Shown here: positions 35,398 to 61,166 of the stretch, one piece after another
Layout: every line of letters starts with the position of its first letter
Numbering within the stretch: position 1 is the stretch's first letter
Assembly: GCF_021026295.1 (NCBI RefSeq)
Contig: NZ_JAJNDA010000002.1
Span: forward strand, 310,001 to 374,000
Origin: Actinomycetospora soli
GTDB lineage: Bacteria; Actinomycetota; Actinomycetes; Mycobacteriales; Pseudonocardiaceae
Length of the DNA stretch: 64,000 nt
Reading direction: 5' to 3'
Program-made: the position numbers and the translations under genes
The notes under the pieces: model-generated
Told to the model about the DNA's origin: nothing
The model's database searches: none
The model's input: the letters and a program-made list of their open reading frames with translations, nothing else

Positions 35398-36171
35398 GTG
35401 TCCGACCTGCTGCTCGGTCTCCGGCTCTACGCGCGCGGCGCCGGGACGGTGCTGCGGTCGCCGCGGCTGCTGCGCCTCGGGGCGCTGCCCGCGCTGGCGA
35501 CCGCGGTCCTCTACGTCGGCGCGCTCGTGGTGTTCGTGCGGTACCTGGGCGACCTGGTCGGGCTGCTGACGTCCTTCGCCGCCGCGTGGTCCCCGGGCGC
35601 GCGGGACCTGGCCGAGGTCGTCGTCGGGACCGCGCTCGTGGCCGCGGTGGCGCTGGTGGCGGTCCTGACGTTCGTGGCCGTGACGCTCGCGATCGGCGGG
35701 CCGTTCTACGAGAAGCTGTCGGAGATCGTGGACGACACGGTCGGGTCGGTGCCGGACGGGCCGGGACGGTCGTGGTTCGGCTCCGTCCGGGACGGACTGC
35801 TGCTCGTGGCGCTCTCGGTGCTGGTGGCGATCCCCCTGTTCGTGGCCGGGTTCGTACCGGTGGTGGGGCAGACGGTGGTGCCGGTGGTCGCGGCGCTGGT
35901 GGGCGGGCGCCTGCTGGTGCTGGAGCTGACCGCGCCGGCCCTGGAGCGGCGGGGGCTGGGCCTCGCGGCCCGACGGCGGGTCGTGCGGTCCCGTCGGCTG
36001 CTCGGCTGGGCGGTGGGCGTGCCGACGTACCTGCTCTGCCTGATCCCGCTCGTCGGCATCGTGGCGGTGCCGATCGGTGCCGCCGCGGCGACGTTGGTGG
36101 CGCGCGAGCTGCAGGGCGAACCGACCGGGGTGCCGACCCGTCCCGCGCGAGGGGAACCCGCGCGCCACTAG
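35398..36171 (+). CDS. EI24/CysZ-like membrane protein
   Basis: The 257-residue integral membrane protein resembles the EI24 domain family, which includes the sulfate transporter CysZ. Landmarks are GPFYEKLSEIVDD after the second helix pair (about residues 100-112) and about four to six membrane helices (around residues 28-50, 75-98, 140-165, 200-230). Whether it moves sulfate or serves another role cannot be told. GTG 35398 has GACGAT six bases upstream. Its stop codon overlaps that of jetD in the centre of a palindromic repeat. Confidence 0.8.
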   Translation: MSDLLLGLRLYARGAGTVLRSPRLLRLGALPALATAVLYVGALVVFVRYLGDLVGLLTSFAAAWSPGARDLAEVVVGTALVAAVALVAVLTFVAVTLAIGGPFYEKLSEIVDDTVGSVPDGPGRSWFGSVRDGLLLVALSVLVAIPLFVAGFVPVVGQTVVPVVAALVGGRLLVLELTAPALERRGLGLAARRRVVRSRRLLGWAVGVPTYLLCLIPLVGIVAVPIGAAAATLVARELQGEPTGVPTRPARGEPARH

Positions 36172-36194
36172 AGCGCTCGCCGCCTCCCCTCACG
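36146..36194 (-). repeat. 49-base palindromic repeat, copy B (likely bidirectional terminator)
   Basis: TCCCCTCACG/CGTGAGGGGA and CGCGAGGGGA arms enclose GAGCGCTC, matching copy A at 29509-29557 in reverse orientation. The element contains the overlapping stop codons of the EI24 gene and jetD and codes for the last residues of both. Confidence 0.8.
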
Positions 36195-37376
36195 AACGGC
36201 CGCGTCCAGCAGCTCGTCCATCACCCGCTCCTCGTCGACGGCCCGGCCGTGCTCGCTCATCGCGTGCTGCAGGTCGGGGTCCCACGGCGTGGGCGGCACC
36301 GGACCGTCGAACGGGCGCAGGTCGGGCGACACCGCCGCGCGGTAGTCGGCGGCGGTCATGCGCCAGGGCACGACGCCGAGCCGGGCGAGGCGGGCCGTGA
36401 TCGCCACGCCGGAGGGGTCGAGGTCGCCGTGGTGGCGGACCTCCGCCCCGGCGGCGAGCAGGCCACGGACGAGCGTGAGGGGCGCGGTCGTCGGGTTGCC
36501 GAGGGTGCACAGCATCGGCACCGGCAGCGCCCGCTGGACGGCGGCCTCGAGCAGACGCGGGTTCTCGACGCTGAGCACCACCGTGCCGGGCGGGACCTCG
36601 AGCGCCGGCTCGCGGAGCGTCAGCGTGGCGAGGTAGCCCGGCGCGCCCGCGGCCGTGGCGGCCCGGACAGCGGCCGCCGCACCGTCCCCGAGCAGCGGCA
36701 ACGACCACGTCGGCACCGGGGTCGCGACCAGGTCGCCGGGCAGGCCCGCGTCCGCCCACAGCTCGGCGTCGTCCCGGTGGCCCCGCCCGGCGCGCAGCGC
36801 GAGCGCCGTCCCGACGAGGCGGCGGGTCGGCTCACCACGGTCGAGCGCGTGGGCGTCCCCCAGCACCCGGGCGGCGACCTCCGCGCGGCTGCGCAGCCCC
36901 GGTTCGTCGGCCGCGGCGAGCACCCGCGCGACGGCGTCGACGGCGGCCCGCGCCGACCCGTCGTCGGGAAGGCCCGGCCGCACGGCCTCGGCCCAGGCGA
37001 CGACCCACGGCTGCAGGCCGAGCGCCTCCGTGGCTGCGGCCGTGAGCGCCTCGTCGCGGCGGGCCCGACGGTCGCGCTCGGCGTCGCGGGCCTCCCGGCG
37101 GCCGGTCGGCGGGCAGCCGGCCGCGGCGAGCAGGGCGAGGAGGTCGGCGCCGTGGCGCTCGAGTGCGGCGTCGAGTGCCGAGAGGTCGAGGCGGCGACGG
37201 GTGCTGGGGAACCGGACCCGGAGCAGCTCGCCGAGCCGGGCGAACACCGTGTCGGGCAACCCCTGCGGCAGGGCGACGGCCCGACGGTCGTCCAGGCCGC
37301 GTTGATCGAGCGTCCTCGCGACGCGCTGCCACACGGGGAGGAACTCGTCGCCGAGGAGCACCGCCGGGACGGTCAC
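36168..37376 (-). CDS. jetD: Wadjet nuclease subunit JetD (DUF2399/Toprim type)
   Basis: The 402-residue product fits the DUF2399 (TIGR02679-type) family. The C-terminal half is a Toprim-like nuclease: catalytic Glu in SVENPRL (about residue 269) and the Asp pair in HHGDLDPSG (about residues 315-323), after GNPTTAPLTLVRGL. The N-terminal half is a DNA-binding/dimerisation region. In Wadjet, the Jet SMC complex extrudes plasmid DNA and JetD cuts it (family knowledge). GTG 37376 has GAGGAGG upstream, and 120 bases holding a repeat element separate it from jetB, so it may be expressed apart. All expected catalytic residues are present. Confidence 0.85.
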   Translation of the reverse strand: MTVPAVLLGDEFLPVWQRVARTLDQRGLDDRRAVALPQGLPDTVFARLGELLRVRFPSTRRRLDLSALDAALERHGADLLALLAAAGCPPTGRREARDAERDRRARRDEALTAAATEALGLQPWVVAWAEAVRPGLPDDGSARAAVDAVARVLAAADEPGLRSRAEVAARVLGDAHALDRGEPTRRLVGTALALRAGRGHRDDAELWADAGLPGDLVATPVPTWSLPLLGDGAAAAVRAATAAGAPGYLATLTLREPALEVPPGTVVLSVENPRLLEAAVQRALPVPMLCTLGNPTTAPLTLVRGLLAAGAEVRHHGDLDPSGVAITARLARLGVVPWRMTAADYRAAVSPDLRPFDGPVPPTPWDPDLQHAMSEHGRAVDEERVMDELLDAAVREGRRRAL

Positions 37377-37414
37377 GGTGCCTCCTCGCCTCGTCGTCTC
37401 GTCGACGTCGTGGG

Positions 37415-37455
37415 TTTCCTGCCACTGGACGACAGCAACGACGCTTTCCTGCCAC
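37415..37455. repeat. Interspersed 41-base repeat between jetB and jetD
   Basis: The element carries two direct TTTCCTGCCAC copies (37415-37425 and 37445-37455) around GGACGACAGCAACGACGC. Related copies lie at 46102-46158 (as a 23-base inverted repeat) and 61127-61166. Confidence 0.85.
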
Positions 37456-37496
37456 GGGTGGGAACGGGGTGGGGCGAGGTGGGCGACGTGCGAGAA

Positions 37497-38657
37497 CTAC
37501 AGCAGCGTCGGCTGCTCCTCGACGTCCTCCCCCTCGACCACGGTCACGTCCGGCGTGTACCGCGCCGCGGGCGGCAGCACCCGCACCGCGCCGTCGCCCT
37601 CCACCGCCACCAGCCGCATCGACGTCAGGAGCGCCAGCACGTCCGCGGCGAAGCGGTCCCGGTCGGCCAACGCCGCCTTCGACCAGTACCGCCCGTGCTC
37701 GGCGACCAGCTCGTCGAGCACCTCACGCACCGACGCCCACGGGATCGCCTCCGGGTCGTCGGCCGGCCGGAACTGGTACACCAGCTCGCTGACCAGCAGC
37801 AACGCCGCGTGCGGCACGGTGCCGCCGGACGGGAACGCGATGTCCGAGCACCCCCCGTCGACGTCGAGCGCGGCGAACCCCTCGGCGCGCGCCTCCAGCA
37901 CCAGCCCCGTCCGGGCCTCGACCCGCCGCCCCTCGTCGCCCGCGCGCCGCCGCAGCTCGGCGAACCGGGCGGGGTCGAGGTCGGACGCGAGCACCACCGG
38001 GTCCTCGACGAGCCGGCGCCGGGCCGCGGTCGCCGCCGACCCCCGCTCGCGGGCGCGGTCGACCAGCTCCTCCGGGGACTCCGCCCCCACCACCGCGCCG
38101 GTCGGCAGCAGCGCCATCCGGTCCTGACGCACCTCGAGCAGCGCGTCGGCGTCCGCGTCGTGCTCGTAGACCGCGACGCCCCGGTCGAGCTCGCGGAGCA
38201 TCCCCTGCGCGATCAGCCAGCGCAGCGCCGTCACGAGCGCGCGCCGCGACGCCGCGTCGGTGTCCAGCACGACACCCGCCTCGGCGGCCGCGGAGTGCAC
38301 CGCGTTGACCAGGTCGCGCAGGCTCGTGCGGTCGGGCCCCGACGTCGTCGCCGCCAGCACCAGCGCCAGCGCCGTGTACTCGGCCGACGTGAACGGCCGC
38401 GGCGACGCCGACACCGTCCGCAACGGCCGATCGGCGGGCACGTGCCCCGTCTTCACCAGGCGCGCCGTGTCCGCGGTGACGACGAGCCGGTAGTTCAGTT
38501 CCTGGGTGAACCACGCGTCCAGCGCGTCGACGTGCCGACGGATCGACGCGACGAGCTCCGGATCCGTCTCGACCGTCCGCCACGGGCGGGCGAGCAGGGC
38601 CCGCGTCGCCGCGACGAGCTCGCCGTCGCGCTGCGGGTCGGTGGCGGGCGTGCTCAC
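37497..38657 (-). CDS. jetB: Wadjet accessory subunit JetB (DUF2398 type)
   Basis: The 386-residue product fits the DUF2398 (TIGR02678-type) family: RALLARPWRTVETDPELVASIRRHVDALDAWFTQELNYRLVV at the start (about residues 17-60), RPFTSAEYTALALVLAA, then tandem winged-helix segments (ALRWLIAQGMLREL) and a C-terminal ALLTSMRLVAVEGDGAVRVLP. By analogy with other SMC systems it would be the KITE-like subunit (MukE/MksE position). The assignment of A and B letters in type II loci is from memory. GTG start overlaps the upstream gene's stop (GTGA). Confidence 0.83.
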   Translation of the reverse strand: MSTPATDPQRDGELVAATRALLARPWRTVETDPELVASIRRHVDALDAWFTQELNYRLVVTADTARLVKTGHVPADRPLRTVSASPRPFTSAEYTALALVLAATTSGPDRTSLRDLVNAVHSAAAEAGVVLDTDAASRRALVTALRWLIAQGMLRELDRGVAVYEHDADADALLEVRQDRMALLPTGAVVGAESPEELVDRARERGSAATAARRRLVEDPVVLASDLDPARFAELRRRAGDEGRRVEARTGLVLEARAEGFAALDVDGGCSDIAFPSGGTVPHAALLLVSELVYQFRPADDPEAIPWASVREVLDELVAEHGRYWSKAALADRDRFAADVLALLTSMRLVAVEGDGAVRVLPPAARYTPDVTVVEGEDVEEQPTLL

Positions 38658-40165
38658 GGCGCTGCCTCTGATGGTCGAGCTCCGCTGCGCTGCGTCTCCG
38701 GCTCCACCGTCAGCGCCAGCCCCTCGACCCGCAGGGCCCCCGCGTGGGTGGGCACACTCGTCGTCGTGCCGGGGGCGCGGCGCACCTCGCAGCGCACGCC
38801 GTCGAGGACGATGCTCCCCGTTCCCGACGACGAGGCCGGGCCGAGATCCGCGACCGCGCGGGTCAGGACCCGCTGCAGCTCACGCAACGCGGGCTCGGAG
38901 AGCCGGGCCGTGAACCCGCCTGCGCCGACCTCGAGCAGCTCCGCCCGGGCGGCCGCGGCCCGCTTCTCGACCTCCGCCCTGCGCGCCAGCAGGTGTCGCC
39001 GCTCCTGGGTGCGGTCCTGCACGCGGGACGTCCGGCCCCGGCTCGTCGTGTCGCCGCGCTCGCGCAGCGACACCGGCACGGTCGCCACCGGCGCGTCCCA
39101 CCACGAGACGGAGCCGTCGACGGGGTCGGTGTCGTCGCCGCCGGCCACCCCGAGGTGCCGTGCGCCGTAGAGCCCGAACGCGGCCGCCGCGAGCTCGTGC
39201 GCGCGCGGGGCCGGGGCGTGCGCGAAGAACCCGGCCAACCGCAGGAAGTCGACGCGCCGCGACGAGCCCGCGGTGCCGGTGCGGGAGAGCCTGGTCAGGT
39301 TCTGGGTGAGCGTCCGGACCGCGTCGACCGCGTCCCGCTCCAGCGTCTGCACCCGGCTCGGGCGACCCGTCGTCGAGACGAACCACGACGCGAGGTTCTC
39401 CCAGTCCGCCGTCGCCGCGCCCGGCTCGCGGCGGACCCGCACCGTGGACAGCCCGGCCGCGGCGACCCGCGCGGCGAGACCGTCGGCGGCCCGGTCGACG
39501 ATCGTCCCGACGGCGGGTGCGAGTTCCGTGAGCAGGCCCGCGATCGGGCGGGCCGCGCGGTGCAGCGTCTCCAGCCGCTCGCCGACGTAGCCGACGAGCA
39601 CCTCGGAGAAGAACGCGAACTCGTCCTCGTCGAGGTCGAAGCGCGACTGCCACTGGTTGATCGCGGCGAAGAACTGCGTGATCTCGGCGGAGAACGCGAC
39701 GTGCGGGTCGAACACCGCGCGCACCGCCGCGGCGAGCCGGCCGGGCGGGGCGGTCGCCGCGTCGAGCCGGGCCAGGTCCTCCAGGGCGGCCCGCAGCTGG
39801 TCGAGGCGGCCCAGCGACACGTCGCGGACGTCGTCGACCTGCGCGAGGACCCCCTCGACGAGGTCGTGCACCTCCTGCCCGACGCGCGTGATCAGGTAGC
39901 GGTCGCGGCGCCGGTAGTAGTCCTCGACCGTCCCGACCTGCCCGACCGAGGCCGAGACCTCCAGGTTCCCCCACACCCGCAGCTGGTCGAGGCGGATCTT
40001 CACGGTCGCCTCGTCCAGCTCGTGCCCGCTCTCCGCCAGCCGCGCGGTGACCTCCCCCGGCGTGAGCTCCGCGAAGAAGGTGCCCGCGAAGACGCCGAGG
40101 ATCCACCGGTACTCCGGCGACTCGGTGACGTAGGAGAAGACGACCGGCCGGATCGTCGTGCTCAT
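38654..40165 (-). CDS. jetA: Wadjet kleisin-like subunit JetA (DUF2397 type)
   Basis: The 503-residue product fits the DUF2397 (TIGR02677-type) family, beginning VFSYVTESPEYRWILGVFAGTFF (about residues 9-31), then a winged-helix-like LDQLRVWGNLEV, a long helical middle and VQTLERDAVDAVRTLTQNL. It would bridge the SMC heads as kleisin does (MukF/MksF position). ATG overlaps the jetC stop (ATGA) and its own stop overlaps the jetB start. Its last residues (ETQRSGARPSEAAP) are encoded by one copy of the interspersed repeat seen in recB, but in a different reading frame. Confidence 0.83.
   Translation of the reverse strand: MSTTIRPVVFSYVTESPEYRWILGVFAGTFFAELTPGEVTARLAESGHELDEATVKIRLDQLRVWGNLEVSASVGQVGTVEDYYRRRDRYLITRVGQEVHDLVEGVLAQVDDVRDVSLGRLDQLRAALEDLARLDAATAPPGRLAAAVRAVFDPHVAFSAEITQFFAAINQWQSRFDLDEDEFAFFSEVLVGYVGERLETLHRAARPIAGLLTELAPAVGTIVDRAADGLAARVAAAGLSTVRVRREPGAATADWENLASWFVSTTGRPSRVQTLERDAVDAVRTLTQNLTRLSRTGTAGSSRRVDFLRLAGFFAHAPAPRAHELAAAAFGLYGARHLGVAGGDDTDPVDGSVSWWDAPVATVPVSLRERGDTTSRGRTSRVQDRTQERRHLLARRAEVEKRAAAARAELLEVGAGGFTARLSEPALRELQRVLTRAVADLGPASSSGTGSIVLDGVRCEVRRAPGTTTSVPTHAGALRVEGLALTVEPETQRSGARPSEAAP
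38673..38699. repeat. Single copy of the recB-type repeat core at the end of jetA
   Basis: The 27 bases match the core of the tandem repeat at 8319-8420 exactly. Here it is read in another frame (ETQRSGARP instead of GDAAQRSST). Confidence 0.88.
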
Positions 40166-43100
40166 ACGCCCCGGCCCGGGGTCGAGCTCCGCTCCGCTGC
40201 GTCTCCCACCGACAGCTCGGACCCGTTCCAGCGGTAGTGCACGAGGGCGATCGCCTTCAGCTCCGGGTCGCGCAGCACCTCGGTGATGGCGAGCGCCGGG
40301 ACGCTCGGGTGCGTGCCCCACAGCCGCTCGGAGGTCACGACGAAGTCCACGTCGAGGTCCACGAGCAGGCCGAACAGCTTCGCGTGGTTGTCCTCGGAGA
40401 CCTTCGCGAACGCGTCGTCGAGCAGCACCAGCCGCGGGGCGCCGACGCCGTGCGGGTCGTGCGCCGCGGCGCTCGCGGCGGCGGCACTGGCCATCGGCAG
40501 CACCGTGACCAGCTTCTTCTCGCCCTCGCTCAACGTGGTCCGGCGCGTCAGCAGCTCGTCGTTGCGCCCCGGGCGGCGCAGGTAGATCCGCATCTCGTGC
40601 CAGGTCCGGTAGTCCAGGACCTCGGAGATCACCGAGCGGTACGACGCCTCCGGGTCCGCCGTGCGCGCCTGCTCGACGAGGCTCTTCACGGCCTCGCGGA
40701 CCTGGTCGTCCTCGTCGGGCGACCGCAGGTCGGGGTGCTTGCCCAGCAGCGCCAGCGCCGTCGCCGTCTCGGGCGCCAGGTCGCCGCGGGGCCGCCACTG
40801 CAGGCGGACGCCGATGCCCTGGCTCGACGTCACGCCGCGCAGGATGCGGTTCATCCGCTCCACGAGCTCGGACGCCGCGAACAGCGCGTCGGCCACCTCG
40901 CGGGCGATCCTGCCGTGCAGGAGGTTGCGCAGCGCCTGGTCCTGCTGCGCCGAGAGCAGGCTCGTCGCGCGCCGCCGCTGGACCGCGACGCGGTGCACCA
41001 TCTGCGCGAGCACCGCGCGGGTCGGCCCGGTGACGTGCACGGCGAGGGGCGTGCCGTCCGCCCCGCGCCGGGACTCGATGTCCCAACCCGACGCCAGGTG
41101 GTCGCGGGTCTCGCGCAGGGCCTTCTCCAGCGCGTCCTCGGTGACCTGACGACGCGGCGCCGCCAGCCGGGCGCGCAGGGCGTCGACCAGCTCCGCGGCG
41201 CCCTCGACGGTGTCCGGGGTGGCCGGGATCGGCTCCTCGGACCAGTCGACGGGACCGTCCGCGGCCCCGCCGTCCTCCCTCTCCGGGACGACCGGGTCGT
41301 TCGTCCCCGTCGAGGCGTCGGCCCGCTCCGCCGCGGCGAGCAGCCCCGGCACGTCGAGCGCCTCGACCAGACGCCCCCGGCCACCGACGGCCGCGGACTC
41401 CCGCTCGGCGAGCGTCTCCCGCGCCGACTCCACGCGCAGCTCCGCCTCGCGGAGGCCGACCGTCGCGGTCGTCTGCTCCTCGCGGGCCGCGTCGAGCCGG
41501 GTGGCGGTCTCCCGCAGGTGCGTGTCGAGCTCGCCGACCCGCGCGGCGATCTTCGCCGGTTCCTCCCCGAGGGCCGACTCGGCGGTGTCGAGCTCGGTCC
41601 GCAGCGACGCGGCGTGCCCCGCGGCGACGCGGTGGTCGGCGATGGCCGCGCCGAGGTCGGCGACCTCCCGCTCCCAGCCCGCGACCGCCTCGCGCCAGGA
41701 CCGCGCGCTGCGGCGGGCCCGTTCGACGGCCGCGTCGACGGCGGACAGCGCCCGCTCGGCGTCGGCGACCGCCTCCAGCAGGCCCTCGAGCCGCTCGGCG
41801 TCGGTCGACAGCCCGGCGTCCGCCGCCTCCTGCTGCAGGCGGGCCACGGCGTCGTCCGCCCGACGGCGGGCCTCGGCGGCCGCGGCGGCCCGCTCGGCGG
41901 AGCGGCCCTGCGCCTCCTGCGCGTACCGGGCGGCGCCGGTCGCGGCGACCACCGCGTCGTCGACGGTGCGCGTGCCCGGCAGCTCGCGGACGAGGCGGCG
42001 CAGCGTCTCGGCGTGCGCGTCGAGCGCCCCGGCCACCGTGCGGACGGCCACGAGGCGGGTCTCGGCGTCGTCGACCTGCGCCGCGAGCTCGGCCAGCCGG
42101 CGCGCCCGGGCCTGCTCCCGCGCGCCCGCGCCGACGTACTCGGCGGCGGGCTTCGTGTGCCGGCCCCGCAGCGGGCCCGCCCCGAACGACCCGTCCTCGG
42201 CGACCCAGAGGGCGTCGCCGGGCGTCGTCCCGATGCTGCCGAGGACCCCGGCGACGACCTCCACCGGCACCGCGCCGGTGTCGACCGGCACCAGCCGCGG
42301 CCCGGCCCCGGACCCGGCGGCACCCGGCGTCAGGAGGAGCTCGCCGTCGCCGCCGCGGACCCCGCCGTCTGGCTCGACCCGGGCCGCGAGCAGGCCCGAC
42401 GCCTCCAGCGCGGCCTCGAGCCCGGCGCGGCCGGCGTCGTCCAGGTCGTCGGCGAAGTCGACGAGCGACGCGAACAGCACCGCGTCGTCCACGCCGGTGT
42501 CGGTGCGCCAGGGCTCGCGGGGCAGCGGCAGCTCGCCCGCCGCCTCGACGCGGGCGTGCTCGGCGCGCAGCGCGCCCAGCTCGTCGTCCACCTCGCCGAC
42601 CCGCGCCGTGGCCCGGGCACGTGCGGCGGCCAGCGCCCCCGAGGCGTCGTCGGCCGCCCGGCGGGCGGCACCGACGAGGGCCTCCGCGTGCGCCCGCAGG
42701 TCGTCGACCGGCTCGGCGTCCGGCTCCCCGCCGGGGACCGGCAGCCACCCCGTCGGGCCGTCCGGCTCGGTCGCGGGCACGGCGGCGAGGTGGGCGGCCA
42801 GCCGCTCGCGCCAGGTCGCGACGGCCGTGACGTGCTCGTCGGCGGCGACGCGGGCGGCCCGGCGGGCGACGTCGGCCTGCTCGGCCGCCTCGGCGGCGCG
42901 CTCGCCCGCCTCGGCCGCCTCCACGCCGGCGCGGTCGGCGGCCGCGGTCTCCCGGTCGGCCGCGGCGGCGCGTTCCCGCAGCTCGCGCACGGTCGACCGG
43001 TGGGCACGCAGCCCGTCGGCGGCGGCCAGCAGCGCGGGCGGGAGGTCGTCGACGGGGTCGGTGTCGTCCTCCGGGACGTCCACGGTGGTGCCGCTCGCGG

Positions 43101-44325
43101 CGTCGTCCCGCGGCTCGGTGGCGAGGGTGGGCGGGTCCGGGAGCCGGACCGGCGCGGACGCGGCCCGGGCGGCCGTGGCCACGCCGCGCAGGTGGTCGGC
43201 GACACCGGCGAGGTCGGACTCGACCTGGCCCCGCGCGGCCGTCACGCTGCCGGCGGCGGTGGTCACGCGGGCGAGGGCGCGGCCGCGGACGGCGTCCAGG
43301 GTGCGCGCGGACTCGTCGGCCCGGACCAGCTCGTCGCGGCGGCGCAGGAGGTCGGCGTGCGCGGCGTACTCCGGCAGGCTCACCAGGCCCTGCCGCTCCG
43401 AGGAGGCACGGGCGTGCTCGTCGGCCAGCTCACCGACGGCGCGGACGGCGTCGTCGCGGGCGGTCGCCGCCCGCTGCGTCCCGGCCCGGTCGCGCTCCAC
43501 GCGCCGCTCGGCGGTCCGCGCGGCGTCGACGGCCGACGCCGCGCCCTCCACGGCCGTCATCAGCACCCGGCGGGCGTAGTCGGTGTAGACCTCGACGACC
43601 GCGTCGAGCGCCGTCGCCGTCGCCGCCAGGTCGGTGACGTTGCGGCGGTGGTCCTCCAGGTCCTCCAGCGGCTGGGCGGCGTCGTTCACCGCGTCCTCGG
43701 GCACCGGCGGCAGCGCCTCGCGCAGGGTGCGCGGCAGGTCGGTGTCGATGCGGTCGCCGACGCGCGGGTTCCGGACCTGGTGCAGCAGCCGGAAGTACGC
43801 CGTCGGGTCGGTGCCGCCGAAGAAGCGGCGGGCGATCTCCGCGCGGTACTCGGCGGTGGAGGTGAACACCTGCCCGCGGACGCCCAGCTCGGCGCGCAGC
43901 GCGTCGACCGAGAACGGGACGTCGGCCTCGGTGAGCCGGAAGTCGAGGCGGGCGCGGCGGTCGGTGGAGAACCACCAGGTCGTGACGCGGTCGGTCGACC
44001 GGTTGGCCCGGATCCCGCAGCCCACCGTCCGGTACTCGCCCCCGCGGACGAACTCGATCCACAGGTAGCCGGTGCGCTGCGTGTCGTCGTTGTCGGAGAG
44101 CATCCAGGAGCGCAGCACGCCGCGCTGCTCCCCGGCCGCGTCGATCTTGCGGACGTCGGCCTCGAGCAGGAACGGCAGCAGCATGTTCATCGCCGTCGAC
44201 TTGCCCGAGCCGTTCACGCCGCGCAGCAGCAGGCGGCCGCCGCCGAACTCCAGCACCTCGTCCTGGTACTGGTAGACGTTCAGGATCCCGGCGCGCGAGG
44301 GCTGCCAGCGGGCGGGGGAATCCAC
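40162..44325 (-). CDS. jetC: Wadjet SMC-like ATPase JetC (TIGR02680 type)
   Basis: This 1387-residue SMC/MukB-like motor starts with RWQPSRAGILNVYQYQDE (about residues 6-23) and Walker A GVNGSGKST at residues 36-44. Long Ala/Glu/Arg-rich coiled coils fill about residues 240-1150. The ABC signature LSEGEKK (about residue 1262) and Walker B LVLLDDAF (about residue 1297) with SERLWGTHP follow. It would form the loop-extruding core that recognises plasmids. Length is typical. It is the first gene; GTG 44325 follows a -10-like TACCCT by seven bases (leaderless). The extreme C-terminus carries the recB-type repeat (GDAAERSST). Confidence 0.9.
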   Translation of the reverse strand: MDSPARWQPSRAGILNVYQYQDEVLEFGGGRLLLRGVNGSGKSTAMNMLLPFLLEADVRKIDAAGEQRGVLRSWMLSDNDDTQRTGYLWIEFVRGGEYRTVGCGIRANRSTDRVTTWWFSTDRRARLDFRLTEADVPFSVDALRAELGVRGQVFTSTAEYRAEIARRFFGGTDPTAYFRLLHQVRNPRVGDRIDTDLPRTLREALPPVPEDAVNDAAQPLEDLEDHRRNVTDLAATATALDAVVEVYTDYARRVLMTAVEGAASAVDAARTAERRVERDRAGTQRAATARDDAVRAVGELADEHARASSERQGLVSLPEYAAHADLLRRRDELVRADESARTLDAVRGRALARVTTAAGSVTAARGQVESDLAGVADHLRGVATAARAASAPVRLPDPPTLATEPRDDAASGTTVDVPEDDTDPVDDLPPALLAAADGLRAHRSTVRELRERAAAADRETAAADRAGVEAAEAGERAAEAAEQADVARRAARVAADEHVTAVATWRERLAAHLAAVPATEPDGPTGWLPVPGGEPDAEPVDDLRAHAEALVGAARRAADDASGALAAARARATARVGEVDDELGALRAEHARVEAAGELPLPREPWRTDTGVDDAVLFASLVDFADDLDDAGRAGLEAALEASGLLAARVEPDGGVRGGDGELLLTPGAAGSGAGPRLVPVDTGAVPVEVVAGVLGSIGTTPGDALWVAEDGSFGAGPLRGRHTKPAAEYVGAGAREQARARRLAELAAQVDDAETRLVAVRTVAGALDAHAETLRRLVRELPGTRTVDDAVVAATGAARYAQEAQGRSAERAAAAAEARRRADDAVARLQQEAADAGLSTDAERLEGLLEAVADAERALSAVDAAVERARRSARSWREAVAGWEREVADLGAAIADHRVAAGHAASLRTELDTAESALGEEPAKIAARVGELDTHLRETATRLDAAREEQTTATVGLREAELRVESARETLAERESAAVGGRGRLVEALDVPGLLAAAERADASTGTNDPVVPEREDGGAADGPVDWSEEPIPATPDTVEGAAELVDALRARLAAPRRQVTEDALEKALRETRDHLASGWDIESRRGADGTPLAVHVTGPTRAVLAQMVHRVAVQRRRATSLLSAQQDQALRNLLHGRIAREVADALFAASELVERMNRILRGVTSSQGIGVRLQWRPRGDLAPETATALALLGKHPDLRSPDEDDQVREAVKSLVEQARTADPEASYRSVISEVLDYRTWHEMRIYLRRPGRNDELLTRRTTLSEGEKKLVTVLPMASAAAASAAAHDPHGVGAPRLVLLDDAFAKVSEDNHAKLFGLLVDLDVDFVVTSERLWGTHPSVPALAITEVLRDPELKAIALVHYRWNGSELSVGDAAERSSTPGRGV
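40180..40207. repeat. Diverged copy of the recB-type repeat core at the end of jetC
   Basis: The sequence differs from the core at 38673-38699 by one base in the first 26 (CTCCGCTC for CTCCGCTG). It encodes GDAAERSST in jetC, the same frame as in recB. Confidence 0.8.
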
Positions 44326-44349: not shown

Positions 44350-45318
44350 TCAGGCCGCCGCGAAGGGCGACGGGTCGTCCCACCGCGCGAGGGTCTCGCG
44401 GGCCGCGCCGGCGAGCGGGTGGTCGGGGCCGGCGTCGCCGACGGCGCGCTGCCAGGTCAGGGCGCGGGCGACGACGGCCGCCCGGCAGGCGAGCTCGCAG
44501 GTGGCGACCAGCTCGGCGTGCGGGGCGAGGTCGGCGAACACGTCGAGGTAGGCGTCCCGGGCGGTGTGGACCACGGGCTCGTCGGGCTCCACGCCGAGCG
44601 TGCGGGCCAGCCCGCCGAGCCCGACGAGCATGCTCGCGAAGGGGTGCGCGACGACCGCGTCGCCCCAGTCGTAGAACCGCCCGGAAGCGAGCACGTTCCC
44701 CGGGTGCAGGTCCTGGTGGTCGACCGTGACGAGGTCCGCGGCCGGGGCGTCCGCCAGCCGGGCGGCCCACCCGGCGACGGCGGCCCGGCAGGACCCGCCG
44801 TCGGGAAGGCCCGTGACCGCCACCGCCTCGGCGCAGCGTGCGTCGAGGGCCTCCGGGGCGGCGTCCGGCACGCCGAGCGCGAGCATCTCGGCCCGCCGCG
44901 GCGCCATCGCCCGCTGCAGCCGGCCGTAGCGGGCGAGCGCCCCGGCCAGGGCCGGACCGAGCTGCGGGCGCGGGGCGTCGGCGAGCGTCGGCCCGCCGTC
45001 GGGGAGCAGGAGCAGGCCGCGCGCCTCGTCGTGCGCGAGCGGCACGAGCACCGCGTCGGGGGCCGTCGCGACGAGCAGTCGGTAGAGCCCGACCTCGGCG
45101 CGCGTCCGCGGGGTGGTGACCTTCAGCCAGACCGGGCCCGCGGCCGTGGGGAGGCGCAGCACCGACGCCCACGACCGCTCGCGCGCGTCCGGCGGCCCGG
45201 TCCGCCGCACATGCCCGTCGGCCCAGGCGAGCTCGGCGGCGAACCGCACCTCCACGGATCCGCCGGGCACGACGACGGGTTCACCGTCCTCGGAGGAGAC
45301 CCGCACCACGTGACCCAT
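44350..45318 (-). CDS. Aminoglycoside phosphotransferase-fold protein
   Basis: The 322-residue product has a protein-kinase-like fold of the APH family: WLKVTTPRTRAEVGLYRLL with the ATP-binding Lys (about residue 66), catalytic loop VDHQDLHPGNVL (about residues 198-209) and metal-binding FYDWGDAV (about residues 214-221). These residues are intact, so kinase activity is likely, but APH-fold enzymes act on many small molecules and no resistance role can be read from sequence. It lies 24 bases upstream of jetC on the same strand; it is not a known Wadjet part. Start ATG 45318 is divergent from yaaA. Confidence 0.8.
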   Translation of the reverse strand: MGHVVRVSSEDGEPVVVPGGSVEVRFAAELAWADGHVRRTGPPDARERSWASVLRLPTAAGPVWLKVTTPRTRAEVGLYRLLVATAPDAVLVPLAHDEARGLLLLPDGGPTLADAPRPQLGPALAGALARYGRLQRAMAPRRAEMLALGVPDAAPEALDARCAEAVAVTGLPDGGSCRAAVAGWAARLADAPAADLVTVDHQDLHPGNVLASGRFYDWGDAVVAHPFASMLVGLGGLARTLGVEPDEPVVHTARDAYLDVFADLAPHAELVATCELACRAAVVARALTWQRAVGDAGPDHPLAGAARETLARWDDPSPFAAA

Positions 45319-46101: not shown

Positions 46102-46158
46102 GTGGCAGGAAAGCGTCGTTGCTGCCACAGGACGACAGCAACGACGCTTTCCTGCCAC
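46102..46158. repeat. Interspersed repeat as 23-base inverted repeat between convergent genes
   Basis: The arms 46102-46124 and 46136-46158 are perfect reverse complements with an 11-base spacer. The right arm equals the core of the elements at 37415-37455 and 61127-61166. Between yaaA and a convergent gene it should act as a bidirectional terminator. Confidence 0.9.
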
Positions 46159-61126: not shown

Positions 61127-61166
61127 ATCCTCCCGCTGGATGACGGCAACGACGCTTTCCTGCCAC
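61127..61166. repeat. Interspersed repeat, diverged copy
   Basis: The right half (GGCAACGACGCTTTCCTGCC) equals that of the copies at 37415-37455 and 46136-46158 apart from one base; the left half is more diverged. It lies just upstream of the TenA-like gene. Confidence 0.8.

Follow-up and report, generated by a model that had tools for sequence, protein, structure and literature searches.

A putative type II Wadjet locus with its SMC gene first in Actinomycetospora soli, and recurrent loss of jetD among its relatives

Gene content of the locus and family identity of its products

We analyzed a 64,000-nucleotide stretch of the Actinomycetospora soli genome (contig NZ_JAJNDA010000002.1, positions 310,001 to 374,000; hereafter, the window), which carries four intact genes on its minus strand, from 44325 to 36168, in the order jetC-jetA-jetB-jetD (Table 1). 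A sequence-only reading of the window had proposed that these overlapping or adjacent genes form a complete type II Wadjet (Jet) plasmid-defense locus with all motifs intact, and searches with hidden Markov models (HMMs) and PADLOC, together with motif inspection and the predicted fold of JetD, bear this out. More specifically, the jetA start and the jetC stop share 4 bp (ATGA), a 4-bp overlap likewise joins jetA to jetB, and jetD begins past the end of jetB without overlap.

Table 1. Features of the putative Wadjet locus in the window
Feature	Coordinates	Strand	Description
jetC, SMC-like ATPase	40162..44325	-	GTG start, 1387 aa, leading the operon; matches TIGR02680, PADLOC JetC2, and 9qe0
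jetA, DUF2397 kleisin	38654..40165	-	ATG start, 503 aa; matches TIGR02677, PF09660, and PADLOC JetA2
jetB, DUF2398 KITE-like	37497..38657	-	GTG start, 386 aa; matches TIGR02678, PF09661, and PADLOC JetB2
jetD, DUF3323 + DUF2399 Toprim nuclease	36168..37376	-	GTG start, 402 aa; matches PF09664, PF11796, and PADLOC JetD2; catalytic acids and predicted fold
jetB-jetD gap	37377..37496	-	120 bp, containing TGGCAGGAAA twice; outside the defined Wadjet parts

Three subunits exceeded the curated cut-offs of the corresponding type II NCBIfam models, namely, JetC against TIGR02680 (693 bits; cut-off, 463), JetA against TIGR02677 (202 bits; cut-off, 166), and JetB against TIGR02678 (133 bits; cut-off, 125). 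The DUF2397, DUF2398, and DUF2399 matches on which the sequence-only reading had staked its assignment were all found above the Pfam cut-offs (PF09660, 374 bits; PF09661, 282 bits; PF09664, 115 bits), as was DUF3323 in JetD (PF11796, 79 bits), and PADLOC also matched all four proteins (JetC2, 1024 bits; JetA2, 518 bits; JetB2, 315 bits; JetD2, 279 bits). The region from 36168 to 44325 holds four adjacent genes on one strand, as is characteristic of type II Wadjet. Its order, C-A-B-D, departs from the usual jetABCD, in which jetB directly precedes jetC, although gene order is a common trait of type II systems and not a criterion of membership. MksBEF- and MukBEF-like systems have no nuclease subunit, whereas jetD is present and intact in the window. 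Judged by its sequence, the locus is a genuine type II Wadjet that lacks none of its genes, with the SMC gene in a rare first position.

ATPase motifs of JetC and predicted fold of JetD

JetC carries a Walker A motif (GVNGSGKS), an ABC signature (LSEGE), and a Walker B motif (LVLLDD). The one solved relative detected by sequence at an E-value of 0.01 was 9qe0, a JetC (E = 2.4e-58), which we take to be that of the Neobacillus vireti complex nvJET. The closest relatives of JetC were all from Actinomycetospora (best-segment identity, 71-88%). The window genome also has a separate gene for a canonical Smc at another place (914.6 bits).

Four acidic residues of JetD (E271, D318, D320, and E383) are invariant across 23 aligned sequences; both the DUF2399 domain and the catalytic acids of a Toprim nuclease are present. 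Sequence searching yielded no credible solved relative of JetD. The structural comparison was made with its AlphaFold2 model, which was computed from a 23-sequence alignment and reached a mean predicted local distance difference test score (pLDDT) of 94.5. Foldseek ranked Corynebacterium glutamicum MksG (8b7f; E = 1.6e-7) first and Pseudomonas aeruginosa JetD (7til; E = 2.4e-5) next, followed by Spo11 core complexes (E = 0.008). The template-modeling scores were low (0.33-0.38), so it is E-value and rank that carry the fold match; a differing domain arrangement may be one cause of these low scores.

The SMC-first order defines a single clade

To compare gene order across genomes, we read it at fetched loci (numbered L001 onward; genomes, G) using HMMs built from the window proteins. 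The jetC-first order was found at 18 of the 138 places with readable order (L001, which is the window's own, L032-L046, L048, and L184), comprising 15 from Actinomycetospora and three from metagenome-assembled genomes (MAGs; L045, bacterium; L046, Acidimicrobiales; L048, Poriferisocius); records L093 and L099-L102 were treated as duplicates from genomes already counted. At all 120 readable distinct places outside this group, jetB lies directly upstream of jetC. These 120 places comprise 89 drawn from 106 locus records, 24 from 396 genomes sampled across the phylum, and 7 from 66 genomes of one class, that of G379 and possibly Acidimicrobiia, among whose readable loci no C-first layout occurred. 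The sequence-only reading had put the SMC gene in third place in most such loci and had suggested that an SMC-first order might be a distinct layout; the comparison across actinobacteria that it called for upholds both points. Among other arrangements, jetD comes first (D-A-B-C) in L122, L124, and L125, and the Actinomycetospora genome G166 carries a second Wadjet of A-B-C-D order with jetD (L126).

In the JetC tree, 16 C-first loci form one clade (support, 1.0), and the same grouping is recovered with JetA (16 loci; support, 1.0) and with JetB (15 loci; support, 0.992). The trees exclude L047 and the overly fragmentary L048, and L184 was retrieved only once the JetC tree had been built. As the C-A-B-D order is confined to one clade, a single origin of the layout is probable. 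Our search of literature titles and opening abstracts, a coverage outside which most subscription journals lie, returned no report of a C-first Wadjet or of jetD loss in Pseudonocardiaceae.

The layout might nevertheless be an old neutral rearrangement without meaning, the locus being simply one more type II Wadjet. Other orders do occur (e.g., D-A-B-C, above), and family features are kept in all subunits. The layout, in contrast, coincides with a deep clade that has its own Walker B variant and in which jetD has been uncoupled and lost, a coincidence that is correlation and not proof of function; jetD has been lost in the A-B-C-D sister clade as well. We consider the chances of a neutral rearrangement to be about even.

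jetD is repeatedly lost within Actinomycetospora

JetA (DUF2397) was detected in 16 of the 18 Actinomycetospora genomes, the window's included, and in all 15 with a completeness of at least 90%; the corresponding numbers for JetD (DUF2399) are 8 of 18 and 7 of 15. One of the eight genomes with DUF2399, G166, has jetD only at its A-B-C-D locus, and another, G204, is incomplete and has a broken C-A-B copy (taken to be L047), its JetA, counted among the 16, belonging to another Wadjet locus. Altogether, jetD is missing from the C-A-B locus in nine of the 16 JetA-bearing genomes, and in eight of these (G178, G098, G151, G201, G202, G075, G189, and G207) no DUF2399 was found anywhere. A borrowed type I JetD was rejected as a substitute in these eight genomes, from which PF09983 is absent; the only three JetDs that this family matched (G135, G204, and G205) had all been detected through PF09664.

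We compared the DNA downstream of jetB at loci with and without jetD. In all seven such comparisons (the window versus L032, L033, and L037; L034 versus L037; L041 versus L033; and L043 versus L036 and L039), jetD is gone and neighboring sequence is common; three further comparisons were between loci that have jetD. For L043 versus L036, 6 bp take the place of ~1.3 kb. Past jetB, L043, L036, and L039 have the first ~0.95 kb in common. In L032 and L033, the shared sequence starts ~40-50 bp before the jetD stop, resembling a remnant. Other genes follow jetB in some Actinomycetospora, namely, one encoding a weakly TPR-like protein in L033 of A. chiangmaiensis and L041 of A. termitidis, in the latter of which jetD lies beyond it, and those for an ArsR-type regulator and an AHSA1 protein in L035.

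Dollo counting on the JetC tree gave five jetD losses, a number that is approximate for the reason given below. The MAG loci L045 and L046 within the C-first clade also have the C-A-B-D order, and in the JetD tree the genus groups together with L045 as its sister; thus, jetD was probably ancestral in the C-first clade. Ratios of nonsynonymous to synonymous substitution (dN/dS) were estimated pairwise by the Nei-Gojobori method and are rough for so GC-rich a genome and unreliable for near-identical pairs (e.g., 0.36 for jetB of L106/L109 and 0.57 for jetA of L050/L051). Eleven pairs within the genus were examined. For jetA, jetB, and jetC, the ratios were 0.05-0.28 in jetD-less pairs (L032/L033, L039/L040, L035/L044, L035/L039, and L036/L038), 0.07-0.23 in pairs with jetD (window/L041 and L034/L041), for which jetD itself gave 0.26-0.38, and 0.05-0.25 in the remaining, mixed pairs. 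On this comparative evidence, jetD is the unstable part of the locus in Actinomycetospora.

A replacement effector was also sought by clustering neighboring open reading frames (ORFs) from 69 loci; among the 40 largest families (at least 6 loci each), none was common to most jetD-less loci yet missing from loci with jetD.

A sister lineage in other Pseudonocardiaceae retains jetABC with or without jetD

Among 200 sampled genomes of the family, 148 had a TIGR02680 match, and these fell into two score classes. From listed places we hand-picked 60 regions of the sister lineage or the genus and 20 higher-scoring regions, a choice neither random nor exhaustive, so the frequencies below are not population estimates. 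After setting aside five Actinomycetospora loci and L056, L059, and L108, which fall outside the sister clade, 52 sister loci from 24 genera, all of the lower-score class, remained. In the JetC tree, this 52-locus group had low support of its own (0.307), and its grouping with the C-first clade (with L059 included) was supported at 0.993; the JetA and JetB trees also group the sister lineage with the C-first clade.

jetD was intact, that is, had a JetD match with its acids, at 21 of the 52 sister loci. It was full length without the catalytic Glu (replaced by Q, R, M, or A) at nine (L070, L076, L077, L086, L079, L083, L089, L090, and L096), reduced to the N-terminal half or less, with the Toprim half missing, at six (L055, L058, L063, L068, L085, and L075), and not found at 16. 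Absence here refers to a stretch reaching from ~4.5 kb before the start of jetC to ~10.5 kb past its end, or less at contig ends, and L094 was scored absent though its genome, G029, has a weak DUF2399 match at an unlisted position. In contrast, a jetD that retains the acids is present at 19 of the 20 higher-scoring loci (Fisher's exact test against 21 of 52, p = 1.5e-5, which ignores shared ancestry). In sister pairs without intact jetD and with dS of at least 0.2, dN/dS of jetA, jetB, and jetC was 0.07-0.25. Full-length JetDs that had lost the Glu gave 0.15-0.20 in three pairs, and such proteins may represent a non-nucleolytic JetD. A gene of one family lies near 49 of the 52 sister loci, its member at L050 being CobD/CbiB (308 bits); we would not expect so nearly fixed a position of a mobile defense system.

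Loss of jetD could simply be the first step in the decay of a costly defense gene, with jetCAB to follow and the jetD-less loci being young relics. At least one loss in Actinomycetospora does look recent (L036 versus L043; dS, ~0.13-0.16), jetC is damaged in L044 and L047, and the six sister loci with just the N-terminal half of jetD look like those of a decaying gene. However, whole sampled genera are jetD-less with jetABC intact (g22, 5 of 5 loci; g17, 2 of 2), with dN/dS of 0.09-0.25 in the sufficiently divergent pairs tested; the JetC match spans at least 4008 bp in 52 of 52 sister loci; and the full-length JetDs without Glu are themselves constrained. We regard ordinary decay as unlikely.

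A second possibility is that JetCAB is mainly a nuclease-independent, MksBEF-like complex for chromosome or DNA maintenance, to which JetD is an optional accessory conferring plasmid cutting where kept, the window included. Several observations point this way, i.e., JetA is far more widely retained than DUF2399 in the near-complete Actinomycetospora genomes (15 versus 7 of 15), intact jetD and a CobD-family neighbor occur at 21 and 49, respectively, of the 52 sister loci, jetA, jetB, and jetC are under purifying selection without JetD, and the 40 largest neighbor families hold no replacement effector common to most jetD-less loci. Such a route is proposed for MukBEF and MksBEF in PMC10586767. 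Then again, a different, unlinked nuclease may serve the jetD-less loci, and some genomes that are jetD-less at the C-A-B locus own a second complete Wadjet (L126 in G166). We give this possibility slightly less than an even chance.

Proposed working and interpretation of the locus

Wadjet cuts circular DNA (PMC10586767), and nvJET, a type II complex, cleaves it as well (PMC12647877); most Wadjet work so far has concerned type I (PMC10586767). By analogy with other Wadjets, for which these steps have been shown or proposed in the literature, JetC (the SMC ATPase), JetA (the kleisin), and JetB (the KITE subunit) of the window would form a loop-extruding motor that reels in a small closed circle of DNA until it is fully extruded, whereupon the JetD Toprim nuclease would be activated to cut the circle. 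The system of the window species is complete and most likely active against small plasmids. In Actinomycetospora, jetD has lost its translational coupling to jetCAB, and unrelated genes lie between the two in some species; several lineages have lost jetD and kept jetCAB, and in these the motor would have to act without a nuclease or with another one.

We interpret the locus, with considerable confidence, as a complete, resident type II Wadjet in an SMC-first operon whose relatives repeatedly lose jetD while keeping jetCAB. Four observations weigh against this interpretation. First, of the TIGR02677-TIGR02680 models that the sequence-only reading had proposed as a check, TIGR02679 did not reach its curated cut-off (JetD, 180.7 bits versus 196); the E-value of 4.6e-53 marks JetD as related but divergent, and its identity is secured by DUF2399, DUF3323, PADLOC JetD2, and the predicted fold. 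Second, near the C-terminus, the Walker B motif reads DD, with Asp replacing the usual catalytic Glu, in 21 of 21 C-first JetC records read, versus DE in 9qe0 and the sister clade (the signature of which is LSSGE in the members displayed). The DD form (LLDD) is also present in A-B-C-D loci of other families (L059, L139, L150, L156, and L159), so it need not abolish JetC activity. Third, L042 is placed differently in the JetD and JetC trees; some jetD copies may thus have been transferred by recombination, which makes the count of losses approximate. Fourth, jetC has decayed in two Actinomycetospora loci, namely, L044, where the C-terminal piece lies in a different frame, and L047, a heavily broken MAG copy.

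Across the C-first clade and its sister, the sequence comparisons indicate that the motor is kept under selection and the nuclease is lost or altered repeatedly, and a nuclease-independent role for the SMC motor is a live reading. We tentatively suggest, while doubting it on balance, that in Pseudonocardiaceae a type II Wadjet is becoming an SMC complex that is resident and free of a nuclease, with the C-A-B and A-B-C lineages independently and repeatedly dropping JetD or its Glu, the motor preserved, and the window representing the ancestral complete form. PMC10586767 speculates that MukBEF, which organizes chromosomes, and likely MksBEF too, derives from Wadjet (section 7), and holds that MksBEF likely arose by JetD loss; if our suggestion is true, these lineages would be a living example of that proposed origin. 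Sister species such as Actinomycetospora chibensis (L043) and Actinomycetospora callitridis (L036), set apart at this site by a single clean deletion of jetD, would offer a direct view of the motor without its nuclease.

Among known systems, nvJET resembles the window locus in its four type II-family subunits and in JetC (the 9qe0 match above), and differs in the Walker B motif of JetC (DE versus DD); the window also has the SMC gene first, the usual order being judged from genome loci and not from N. vireti, and a jetD that does not overlap jetB. C. glutamicum MksBEFG likewise combines SMC, kleisin, and KITE subunits with a Toprim nuclease (MksG, the top match of the JetD model); in contrast, it is a type I Wadjet with operon order mksFEBG (PMC10123090), and its genome reaches TIGR02680 only below cut-off. 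MksBEF and MukBEF, which have no nuclease subunit, share the three-subunit make-up of relatives' JetCAB without JetD; however, the latter belong to type II families and coexist with a canonical Smc (seen in the window genome only), and the window has JetD. The A-B-C-(D) Pseudonocardiaceae group, which is joined to the C-first clade by all three trees and by recurrent jetD loss, differs in its order, its chromosomal site (mostly near cobD), and its Walker B motif (DE).

Chromosomal setting and a dispersed repeat

The sequence-only reading had seen no phage or integrase gene nearby and judged the locus to be resident in the chromosome. Our Pfam scan of 30 flanking ORFs agrees with the former, as the 18 that matched belong to ordinary cellular families, none of them of phage or integrase type; several of the 12 without a match are probably not genes. 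The latter fits the finding of JetA in every near-complete Actinomycetospora genome and of an EI24-type flanking gene at 13 of the 17 C-first loci examined. The families flanking the locus in this 6.5-Mb genome include EI24/CysZ-like, a MerR-type regulator, YaaA, beta-lactamase-family proteins, and a cation exchanger, as well as a periplasmic-binding-protein-like protein just under the Pfam cut-off, with ABC transport and alpha-amylase proteins more distant. No tRNA lies within the window. A defense island was considered and rejected, since PADLOC matched none of ten flanking ORFs credibly, its single call being a weak Cas2 (18.7 bits).

Directly upstream of jetC on the same strand lies a 322-aa ORF (44350-45318) without a Pfam or PADLOC match, the family of which occurs at 8 of the 17 C-first loci examined, the window counted. 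The jetB-jetD gap contains a dispersed short repeat, TGGCAGGAAA, with five copies in the window versus 0 expected (37415-37454, 46103-46157, and 61156-61165). A pair spaced as in the gap occurs twice in the genome, and a similar element lies 3' of jetB in L184, which has jetD, and in L032 and L033, which do not.

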